Assembly: GCF_014218355.1 (NCBI RefSeq)
Contig: NZ_AP023368.1
Location: 3,166,001-3,230,000 of the forward strand
Reading direction: 5' to 3'
Length of the DNA: 64,000 nt
Source: Anaerocolumna chitinilytica
GTDB taxonomy: Bacteria; Bacillota; Clostridia; Lachnospirales; Lachnospiraceae
The first letter of the stretch is position 1, and each line of letters starts with the position of its first letter. The notes beneath the pieces were generated by a model. That model worked only from the letters and a program-made list of their open reading frames with translations, made no database searches and was not told the origin of the DNA. This document shows, piece by piece, positions 4,990-49,431 of the stretch. Made by a program: the position numbers and the translations under genes.

Positions 4990-5129
4990 TATCAGTCTCC
5001 TTTTTCTTGTCCTTACTTTGCATCCTTATATTATATCATATAACAAAATGCTTTGTTAAGCAAAATCCGCAGGAAATACAAAGAAAAAGTAACAATTTAA
5101 CTTTGTATGATTGTAAAATGACTGGAAGC

Positions 5130-5368
5130 GGACGATGGCAGCTGATTTTATTCATACATTTTATTGTTCGGATTTTCGAATTCCACTAAAATAGCAACAG
5201 TCATTCCTAAAAGACTAAATTACACCAAACTCGCTTTCAGCTTAATTGTTATGTAACGCTGTGAGCTCAGACATGGTGTAATTTAATCTAGTCATAACTG
5301 CTGCTATTTAAGTGTCATACGAAATCCCTCAATATAAAATGCCTGAATAAAATCAGCTGCCATCTGTG
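5130..5368 (+). repeat. Structured dispersed element, copy A
   Basis: A 239-bp imperfect hairpin. The outer arms are GGCAGCTGATTTTATTCA (5137-5154) and its exact complement at 5344-5361. Then follow helix GGATTTTCG/CGAAATCC (5170-5178 with 5320-5327), CACT/AGTG (5184-5187 with 5311-5314), and a long helix with internal loop that closes with TACACC/GGTGTA (5221-5226 with 5275-5280). The apical part begins AAACTCGC and ends GAGCTCAGACAT. The ends are CGGACGATG and CATCTGTG. Two other copies occur at 10540 and 48932. The short reading frames through it are not convincing genes. It could be a structured RNA or a small mobile DNA element. Confidence 0.85.
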
Positions 5369-5441
5369 TACGACTATAAATATTTTGATATAATTATAAA
5401 ACTGAATTGGATAATGAGATTGAATAAAGTAGAACTTTCGT

Positions 5442-9061: not shown

Positions 9062-9270
9062 TTGTCCAGTTTATTCAGTGCACATATTATGAATTCCTTA
9101 TAGTTCTGCCTTGTAGTCACATTATTAAACCTTGCAGTTCTGTCTTAAAGTCATATTTTTTAACCATTGCCTTTCAGTCTTACAATCATATTATTAAACC
9201 TTTGCCGTTTAGCCTTATAGTCATATTATTAAACTTTTGCTGTTCAGTCTTACAGGCATAGTGTAAAATT
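9062..9270. repeat. Degenerate 35-bp tandem repeat, left part
   Basis: About six direct units with an exact 35-bp period; the TTGC-type unit starts fall at 9132, 9167, 9202 and 9237. The consensus is roughly TTGCYGTTCAGTCTTATAGT followed by CATATTATTAAACCT. The outer units at 9062 and 9097 are more decayed. The same repeat resumes at 10427, so this array and that one were probably continuous. Confidence 0.85.
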
Positions 9271-10033: not shown

Positions 10034-10450
10034 TTATTTTGTACTCGCAAATCCTTTCATAATAGTTTTTATAAGTTCATCTATATCATTATCAGTATCC
10101 TTAGCACCCTCCTTAAATAGATTCCTTATATCTTTTATAGATTGGGTTTCACCGCTTAACTTTTCTGATAAAGCAGTAACCTTATTTATAACATTAGTAG
10201 AAGGTTTGCTTCCATCAAGATTTAATAACGAATTTAATTCATTTAATCTGGCAAGTTTATTTGTTAGTTCCTCCTCTTGTCTAAAAGGGTTGTCAAGTTC
10301 AGCTTTGGCATTCTGTAATTGGTTTATGATTGATTCTAAATCGTCCTGGTACTTTTTCATCCTTTCATCCATATTGAATTTCATTTTTCTTTGCTTCTTC
10401 TTTTCTAGCTTGTTAACTGCGTGCCATTGCCATTTAGCCTTATAGTCATA
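10034..10450 (-). pseudogene. C-terminal relic of integrative-element SNF2/methylase protein
   Basis: A minus-strand frame that is open from 10450, just after a stop inside the tandem repeat, to the stop at 10034. It encodes a Lys-rich, coiled-coil tail containing PFRQEEELTNKLARLNELN and SLLNLD. This closely resembles the extreme C terminus of the very large SNF2-helicase/DNA-methylase proteins of conjugative integrative elements (Tn1549-like), where a PF.QE.EL...RL.ELN.LLN.D block is typical. An internal ATG at 10384 could make 116 residues but has no good ribosome-binding site. None of the thousands of residues that normally precede this tail is present, so I call it a relic. Confidence 0.65.
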
Positions 10451-10531
10451 TTAATAAACCTTTGCTGTTCAGTCTTACATTCATATTTTTAAACTTTTCC
10501 CTTCAGTCTAAATGCTAATATTAAAATTCAA
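10427..10531. repeat. Degenerate 35-bp tandem repeat, right part
   Basis: Three direct units of the same repeat as at 9062-9270, with unit starts at 10427, 10462 and 10497 (exact 35-base spacing). The unit sequence TTGCTGTTCAGTCTTACA is shared with the unit starting at 9237. The array ends a few bases before structured element copy B. Confidence 0.85.
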
Positions 10532-10539
10532 TAGCGATA

Positions 10540-10784
10540 CACAGATGGCAGCTGAATCCATTCAGGTATTTTCTATTGAGGGGTTTCGTATGACACTTAA
10601 ATGCCAGCTGTTATGACTAGGATAAATTACGCCATGTTTGAGCTCACAATGTCACACAACCCAAAAATCAGAAGCGAGTTTGGCGTCATTTATCCTGCCA
10701 GGAATAACAGTTGGCATTTTAGTGGAATTCGAAACCTCGAACCTGAAAATATCTGAATGGATTCAGCTGCCATCGTCCGTCCCC
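10540..10784 (-). repeat. Structured dispersed element, copy B
   Basis: Inverted relative to copy A. On the minus strand it starts GGGGACGGACGATGG and ends CATCTGTG. The outer arms GCAGCTGAATCCATTCAG are perfectly paired. Next come helix GGTTTCG/CGAAACC, the CACT/AGTG helix, and a long helix on ATGCCAACTGTTAT/ATAACAGCTGGCAT. The apical portion is again AAACTCGC...GAGCTCAAACAT. The joints match copy A almost base for base (AATTCCACTAAAAT; TTTAAGTGTCATACGAAA). It lies between the tandem repeat and the VanY-like gene, and no target duplication is evident. Confidence 0.85.
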
Positions 10785-48801: not shown

Positions 48802-48931
48802 TGAACTTGTACCCCCCACTAAAAATTCCCCTATATTCTAACATATATTCCTGGTTTTGTATACACCAATAGAATAAAAACAGGGGGCAGCTTGCCGAAA
48901 GTACTTTATGTAGGAAAAGAAGGGGCGTTGT

Positions 48932-49174
48932 GGGGACGGACGATGACCGGGGGTTGGTTTTTCCGTTTTGTTGCTCGAGGTTCTCTATTCTACTAAAGCG
49001 GCAGAAAAGGCAACTGGCAGTCAAAACAGCGCCAAACTCGCTGTAACAGTATGGATGCGTAAGTTTACAGAGCTCAGGCATGGCACTGTTTTTCCTAGTT
49101 GCCTTTTCTGCCGCTTAAGTATCATTAGAGACCTCTCGAGACAAAACTCCAAAACCAACCCCCGGTCATCTGTT
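48932..49174 (+). repeat. Structured dispersed element, copy C
   Basis: The ends GGGGACGGACGATG and CATCTGTT match copies A and B, but the outer arms are quite different: ACCGGGGGTTGGTTTT near 48946 pairs with AAAACCAACCCCCGGT ending at 49166. The inner helix is GGTTCTCTA/TAGAGACC (48979-48987 with 49126-49133). The short helix is TACT/AGTA (48991-48994 with 49118-49121) where A and B have CACT/AGTG. The long arm GCGGCAGAAAAGGCAACT pairs with AGTTGCCTTTTCTGCCGC. The apical part is again AAACTCGC...GAGCTCAGGCAT. Open reading frames across it are by-products of the palindrome. Confidence 0.85.
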
Positions 49175-49431
49175 TCTCTCTACAATTGTCTTGTATTGCC
49201 TTGTATAGGGTTTGCTTTCTATTCACTACCAGATATTAGAACTCAAAAAAGCAGAGGAGAATATAAACGAATATGTTTATATTCCACCGTACTTTGTGAT
49301 ATAACAATAACAAAATTAAAAATGCTGCTATTTGAAATCCAGACAATTGAAATACAGGCAAAAAGTACTGATTTGATAGATTTATCTTAATTCAACATAA
49401 ATCAGAGCAACACTTCATATATCGGTTAAAT

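Follow-up and report, generated by a model that had tools for sequence, protein, structure and literature searches.

REPs, BIMEs and REPINs are palindromes scattered between genes, have unpaired features at their ends, and also occur as dimers in opposite orientation (PMC3733652). In the passages of that paper drawn on here, REPs measure 20–40 bp and CGTC stems 8–9 bp, one of the GTAG and CGTC super-families lacks a dedicated transposase, and the phyla named for these super-families exclude Firmicutes, a word absent from the paper's main text (PMC3733652). The same passages describe TIRtrons, in which RAYT-like genes lie between long inverted repeats, some of them self-complementary and some carrying GGGGWSAS (PMC3733652). 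In template-switch correction, as outlined in the excerpts of two papers used here, one arm is copied onto the other and compensatory changes arise in one event (PMC8794818; PMC7202029); template switching has been proposed for RNA genes, chiefly rRNA and microRNA (PMC8794818).

In comparative genomics, covariation is widely held to be the strongest evidence of a functional RNA. An RNA that is kept by selection tolerates G-U pairs. The attC sites of integrons are folded single-strand DNA that is read via unpaired bases, the sequence of the arms being variable. Here, we analyse a hairpin element, copy C, in a 64,000-nucleotide stretch of the Anaerocolumna chitinilytica genome (the window), which also holds the related copies A and B. 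A preliminary description had noted that copy C keeps the fold of the other two with replaced helix sequences, and had seen in this either selection on structure or repeated hairpin-templated correction of the arms. DNA-level correction of the arms is the best supported reading of these covarying hairpins.

Results

Copy C and its family in the home genome

The home genome (G000; 5,621,910 bases or 5.62 Mb, one contig) carries 32 full-length hairpins of about 245 nt, dispersed between genes. DNA searches of this genome gave 21 matches with copy C and 23 with copy A; some palindromes were matched in both directions. Of the 36 distinct DNA matches, we used 32, copies A, B and C included, for an alignment and a covariance model, and dropped four that are short or degenerate; the consensus fold of these 32 copies has 71 pairs, and at least one change on both sides is seen in 59 of them. 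Searching G000 with the model returned 70 matches, 32 of which are full-length at 198 bits or more, while the others are opposite-strand readings of the same palindromes and five short or degenerate copies. The features of copy C are listed in Table 1.

Table 1. Features in and near copy C, and copies A and B (window positions count from the first letter of the window)
Feature	Window position	Genome position	Strand	Basis
Promoter-like site, between the left end of copy C and the start of a small frame that reads away from it	48835..48863		-	consensus match
Copy C, full-length hairpin element, C-type subfamily	48932..49175	3214932-3215175	+	covariance-model match, 233.9 bits, model 1-247
Unpaired left end GGGGACGGAC of copy C, kept across copies	48932..48941		+	motif, 64 of 98 copies (34 listed orthologues taken out)
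Left arm of copy C (outer arm, joint, long arm)	48942..49015		+	inverted repeat, consensus fold
TC, left half of the 2x2 TC/TC internal mismatch of copy C	48989..48990		+	alignment columns 68-69
Apical core of copy C: AACTCGC, variable loop, GCTCAGGCA	49035..49080		+
Right arm of copy C, complementary to the left arm	49097..49170		+	inverted repeat, consensus fold
TC, right half of the 2x2 internal mismatch of copy C	49122..49123		+
Copy A, A-type subfamily	5124..5369	3171124-3171369	+	246.9 bits
Copy B, A-type subfamily	10539..10784	3176539-3176784	-	250.8 bits

By an ungapped count, the arms of copy C are 80% complementary, and GCTCAGGCA is one substitution away from GCTCARACA. Direct reading of both sequences shows T48991-A49121 in copy C where copy A has C5184-G5314. 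The arms of copy C had been called entirely different from those of copies A and B; they have diverged strongly, but the wording goes somewhat too far, as A- and C-type arms have scattered positions and GATG/CATC ends in common. The ends of the element are conserved, but their symmetry does not extend beyond GATG/CATC. Conversion between copies is unlikely, as the arms differ strongly among copies while the joints agree. The protein adjoining copy C shares 81% identity with an Anaerocolumna aminovalerica protein; the remaining listed matches come from Lachnospiraceae and other Clostridia.

Five convergent pairs are found among 31 G000 loci, and elements with the common core show no other paired arrangement. 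One variant-core copy (L150:61-285) lies 1.2 kb upstream of an element in the same orientation. In the right flanks of L220, L200, L197, L223, L252, L209 and L152, a second hairpin type, whole or in part, starts about 70–200 bases downstream of the element; at L220 and L200 its core is oppositely oriented, so that convergent pairs can mix two types. Internally deleted hairpins whose outer arms still pair are present at L021 (G000 3986978-3987068) and in the right flank of L152. Within the window, a 35-base unit resembling CCTTTGCCGTTTAGCCTTATAGTCATATTATTAAA occurs in tandem at 9129-9268 and 10424-10528, about 1.2 kb apart, and the second array stops just before copy B.

Covariation of the arms

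We aligned 97 copies to the covariance model (32 of G000, 22 of G004, 21 of G010 and 22 of G013; cut-off 1e-30 on 88 sources), leaving out the overlapping loci L135, L144 and L149, opposite-strand hits and the weak variant-core copy at L150. For the three relatives this represents 65 of at least about 85 forward sites, the rest belonging mostly to a weaker subfamily of about 257 nt. In this alignment, whose figures lean towards the structure because it was fitted to it, 62 of the 71 pairs have changed on both sides, 94.7% of the cells pair (72.5 ± 0.3% in shuffles), 1569 cells are altered on both sides (424 ± 25 in shuffles), none of 500 shuffles reaches any of five measures, and the covariation score of 0.598 drops to 0.06–0.11 once the partner is slid by 1–3 columns.

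The compensatory change that had been described for three copies, each arm remaining complementary to its own partner, thus holds for copy C and for the family, and the covariation persists under shuffle and sliding controls as the sample grows to four genomes. Covariation alone, in this case, is no proof of a functional or folded RNA.

Changes in place at orthologous sites

From flank matches we hand-picked 21 orthologue groups in G004, G010 and G013, one of which is also common to G000; weaker matches stayed ungrouped. In overlapping within-group comparisons among the three relatives, G000 left out, double changes are Watson-Crick in 69 cases and of another kind in 14, while single changes lead to GT in 35 cases, to AC in 48 and to other combinations in 90. 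In the group common to G000, each comparison with that genome shows 13–14 double changes and 1–2 GT. Double changes in orthologous copies mean that compensation occurs in place and not solely on movement; compensatory double changes happen at inherited sites.

The internal 2x2 mismatch, ATTCCACT opposite AGTGTCAT, records how the arms change. Its left/right dinucleotides in the 97 copies are TC/TC (82), TC/GA (5), GA/TC (5) and, once each, GC/GC, GT/TC, TA/TC, TC/TT and a gap. In 10 of the 97 copies, one half of TC/TC, on the left in five and on the right in five, has thus been replaced by a dinucleotide that exactly complements the facing arm; such a multi-base change in a single arm marks quasipalindrome correction. 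Two-base changes confined to one arm number 11 at this mismatch; beside the 10 exact complements there is one GT, in a copy that has a GA orthologue (group 11). All 10 cases lie in G004, G010 and G013, with none among the 32 home-genome copies. Single loci show the alternatives side by side: in group 14, the left dinucleotide is TC in G010 but GA in G004 and G013; in group 17, GA stands on the right in G010 only; and in group 15, G010 has TC/TC, G004 GA/TC and G013 GC/GC. Such exact overwriting is what template switching on a hairpin would produce. Stepwise change should leave one-base intermediates, and a pairing intermediate was seen in one of 97 copies (TA/TC). The hairpin-templated correction proposed in the preliminary description is thereby supported by double changes in orthologues and by exact two-way overwriting, the latter in relatives and not in home copies.

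Orthologous sites are constrained as well. Between G004 and G013 (17 groups), the proposed comparison of stems with joints gives 3.2% difference in stems and 3.5% (44/1272) in unpaired columns outside the apical loop, whereas the apical loop differs by 10.6%, the nearest 60 bases of flank by 14.6% on either side, and bases 60–160 on the right by 18.6%. Bases 60–160 on the left, which by our reading hold a promoter and a gene start, differ by 4.6% and are about as conserved as the stems. Unpaired columns picked for conservation differ by 1.0%, a partly circular figure as they were chosen in the same copies. The pairs G004-G010 and G010-G013 show the same order of divergence classes at larger distances.

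Stems are thus 3–6 times less divergent than the nearest flanks. Conversion alone would leave them at the neutral rate, so selection on pairing is needed as well. These alignments support selection on pairing, joints and core, acting beside conversion in shares that the figures do not separate. The TC/TC mismatch itself is probably selected, since 82 of 97 copies keep it though conversion can erase it. Plain decay of a mobile element is rejected, given the constraint at orthologous sites.

Distribution in relatives and the apical core

Of 15 genomes of the genus, 9 have matches to the model; over both strands, these number 70 in G004, 58 in G010, 60 in G013 and 33 in G011. Six genomes, including G002, G003 and G008, have no match. 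At the copy C locus of G004, G010 and G013 the flanks are conserved and the element is absent. The orthologous locus of G011 (L186, about 1095-1370) is occupied by another kind of long hairpin, whose core is the variant AACTCCTCGC..GCTCGTCAGACA; this intergenic site is thus used by different hairpin types in G000 and G011.

Across Lachnospiraceae, under strict filters, 11 of 299 genomes have model matches, the home genome and one of its genus counted. Most hairpins in these genomes keep AACTCGC..GCTCARACA, some with 1–2 substitutions, within other arms. The exact core occurs in 47 of 398 Bacillota genomes. At least three sites are present in 16 of them, from 11 families (38 sites in G506, 23 in G661, 18 in G338), and one or two in 31. 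A backward control reaches this last level (12 sites in 11 genomes), and we therefore take 16, not 47, of 398 as the firm distribution of the core. Arms of at least 50 pairs flank 39 of 62 distinct core sites (one site with N left out) and 1 of 248 shuffles; a threshold of at least 10 pairs is too lax, as 180 of 248 shuffles reach it. The 1x1 mismatches at core sites, with a few sites counted twice, are 23 GT, 55 AC and 130 other.

Of variant core sites, for which AACTCCTCGC..GCTCGTCARACA is an example, G011 has 39, G000 and G014 have a single one apiece, and 12 further genomes lack them; such a lineage-specific variant is as expected if a core-reading factor co-evolves.

At the Rfam gathering score, nothing matches over the element in the window and 13 relatives, the sub-threshold hits being to miRNAs only. 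Searches of open papers for six 15-base core strings gave no match, and none of the matches listed for hairpin, REP or REPIN literature describes the present hairpin family.

Further observations concern single genomes and contigs. In the draft genome G506, core sites lie below position 70 of contigs C8, C12, C23, C29 and C42, as expected of near-identical copies breaking an assembly, and three G506 copies have the same arms. The core pattern is found in at least 120 stretches of viral contigs, many of which may be chance. In G131, some 100 bases separate a hairpin element from a TwoAYGGAY RNA (Rfam RF01731, 113.6 bits; L262:1242-1407).

Mismatch spectrum of the arms

Pair cells of the 97 copies comprise 6425 Watson-Crick, 78 GT, 109 AC and 252 other combinations. 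In a control run through the same pipeline, 26 Lachnospiraceae 6S RNAs (of 30 loci, four near contig ends were dropped) show 177 GT and 5 AC. The 33 G000 element copies give GT 42 and AC 64 on the plus strand, and GT 101 and AC 43 when the minus strand is folded; for all 98 copies the counts are 79 and 123, and 209 and 90, respectively. The GT/AC ratio of the 98 copies is therefore 0.64 on the plus and 2.3 on the minus strand, against 35 in the 6S RNAs (Fisher p 2.5e-29 for the 33 G000 copies on the plus strand versus 6S, in cells that are not independent). In another fold, the minus strand has 102 GT and 66 AC, and mild wobble tolerance on this strand is possible.

Three further controls are less informative. 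One that forbids G-U pairs is cruder and does not discriminate (6S: GT 9, AC 5; Fisher p 0.086), SAM riboswitches are too conserved to serve (among 14 sequences, variation at 1 of 30 pairs), and eight tRNAs are too few. Of the marks of an Rfam-type structured RNA, the elements thus show covarying helices and, by their GT/AC counts, lack wobble tolerance. An RNA fold fails to explain the covariation, because G-U is hardly favoured over A-C, unlike in 6S RNA. The elements may have an additional RNA function, as conversion would also wipe out G-U pairs; for the covarying hairpins, an RNA function is not needed. Of the suggested selection on structure, the constraint in orthologous copies stands, while pairing seems not to be kept at the RNA level.

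Neighbouring sequences

For 30 copies we looked at the longest reading frame to the left of the element: it points away from the hairpin in 25, and for 15 of those it starts 54–175 bases off; the frames are mechanical and not annotated genes. Near copy C, two promoter-like sites were found and 2.4 are expected by chance; the stretch with the tabulated site is conserved in L182-L184. By eye, no promoter-like motif was seen at a fixed spacing or position upstream of the copies. A regulon was considered and rejected: the neighbouring proteins of 20 copies are of diverse kinds, among which MatE occurs twice and a radical-SAM domain three times.

Discussion

We think it probable that copy C belongs to a dispersed family of REP-like DNA hairpins in which each arm is corrected from the other and selection preserves the joints, core and ends. 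A mutation of one arm would pass into the other when replication switches template on the folded strand (quasipalindrome correction), and the arms would in this way drift jointly. The joints, apical core and ends would be held by selection, for which the simplest cause may be a protein that reads the folded DNA, as a single-stranded hairpin or a cruciform, via its unpaired bases. Over longer times, sites were gained or lost. No protein partner of the hairpins was found.

A broader version of this reading is put forward more tentatively. The hairpins may represent an undescribed class of folded-DNA sites across many Bacillota families, in which core and mismatches are read by a cognate protein in a cellular role, and the arms are free and homogenised by arm-to-arm copying. 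Replication, chromosome organisation or the control of neighbouring promoters would be candidate roles.

Could mobility alone have renewed the arms? Non-autonomous MITE- or REP-like elements might have been spread by a single-strand (Y1/HUH) transposase, with arms renewed at each transposition and convergent pairs as remnants of a hairpin-tnpA-hairpin unit. We regard this as rather unlikely. The argument that plain transposon copies should have their stems in common does not dispose of it, since that exclusion is invalid once arm-to-arm copying is allowed. Dispersal, subfamilies, patchiness in the genus, the empty copy C site in three relatives and the five convergent pairs in G000 all agree with mobility, as do the remains of an IS200-like tnpA, which three of the four Y1 loci of G004 and G013 have next to an element or between two. 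Against it, constraint and covariation in place at inherited sites mean that renewal of the arms needs no transposition, PF01797 at E <= 1e-3 was not found in G000, G010 and G011, all rich in copies, and the core is absent from the flanks (up to 1.5 kb) of 30 Y1 loci, part of those listed, in core-bearing genomes. A Y1 transposase as sole agent is thus unsupported by the PF01797 searches and the Y1 flanks, and we treat a transposase link as a lead only. Y1 matches occur in 19 of 26 core- or model-bearing genomes, with one in G335 about 600 bases from a core. Decayed IS200-like sequence lies between two convergent elements at L496:1501-1623 and L505:1501-1677, and beside one element at L502:1402-1593.

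That the family is a multi-copy structured non-coding RNA, its arms covarying through a selected RNA fold, appears improbable. Very strong covariation, conserved joints, constrained orthologous sites, the orientation bias of the left frame (away in 25 of 30) and the excess of GT over AC on the folded minus strand (101 versus 43) are what such an RNA would give. The GT/AC ratio, however, is far under that of 6S RNA on either strand, exact two-base loop conversions are unexpected under stepwise compensation, and neither an upstream promoter-like motif at fixed spacing (by eye) nor an Rfam gathering-score match over the element (window and 13 relatives) was seen. Bidirectional terminators or mRNA-end hairpins, both strands of which would fold as RNA and even out G-U and A-C, suit the intergenic positions and the nearly symmetric mismatch spectrum, but are very improbable given that no T-run was seen at the element ends, that most copies, with a left frame pointing away in 25 of 30, do not lie between convergent genes, and that copy C has one terminator-like site, within its left arm, where 0.5 are expected.

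With arm-to-arm correction as the preferred reading, the hairpin family offers a testable natural counter-example to the usual inference from covariation: its arms covary very strongly, yet the spectrum of mismatches and the conversions of the loop suggest an origin at the DNA level. The family also suggests a simple filter, namely G-U versus A-C mismatches together with exact multi-base conversions. The repeat super-family, with its conserved apical core and without an Rfam match, can be used as bait for a binding protein. If the class of folded-DNA sites is real, it would be a natural case of RNA-style covariation arising from DNA.

Among described systems, and as far as the cited passages go, the elements resemble REPs, BIMEs and REPINs in being dispersed, intergenic and palindromic and in forming opposite-orientation dimers (the five convergent pairs). 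They are set apart from REPs and BIMEs by 71 consensus pairs over a length of about 245 nt, by mismatches inside the fold, and by an apical core between long arms that covary, and are thus neither palindromes of 20–40 bp nor built on a CGTC stem of 8–9 bp. As for a REP end tag, the minus strand of the element ends in CATCGTCCG, in which CGTC is present with its first base paired. Like TIRtron repeats, as described in part of the source, they are long, partly self-complementary and often in dimers (PMC3733652), and their left end GGGGRCGGAC is near, though not equal to, the TIRtron GGGGWSAS. Unlike in TIRtrons, a Y1 transposase match is absent from G000. If a protein does read their unpaired bases, the elements, with arms of variable sequence, would resemble integron attC sites; judged by eye, however, the ends CGGACGATG and CATCTGT do not look like attC boxes. 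Finally, in contrast to template switching in RNA genes, as treated in the excerpts drawn on here, the present case concerns bacterial DNA repeats, followed in orthologues at the same locus, in which a marked loop has been overwritten.
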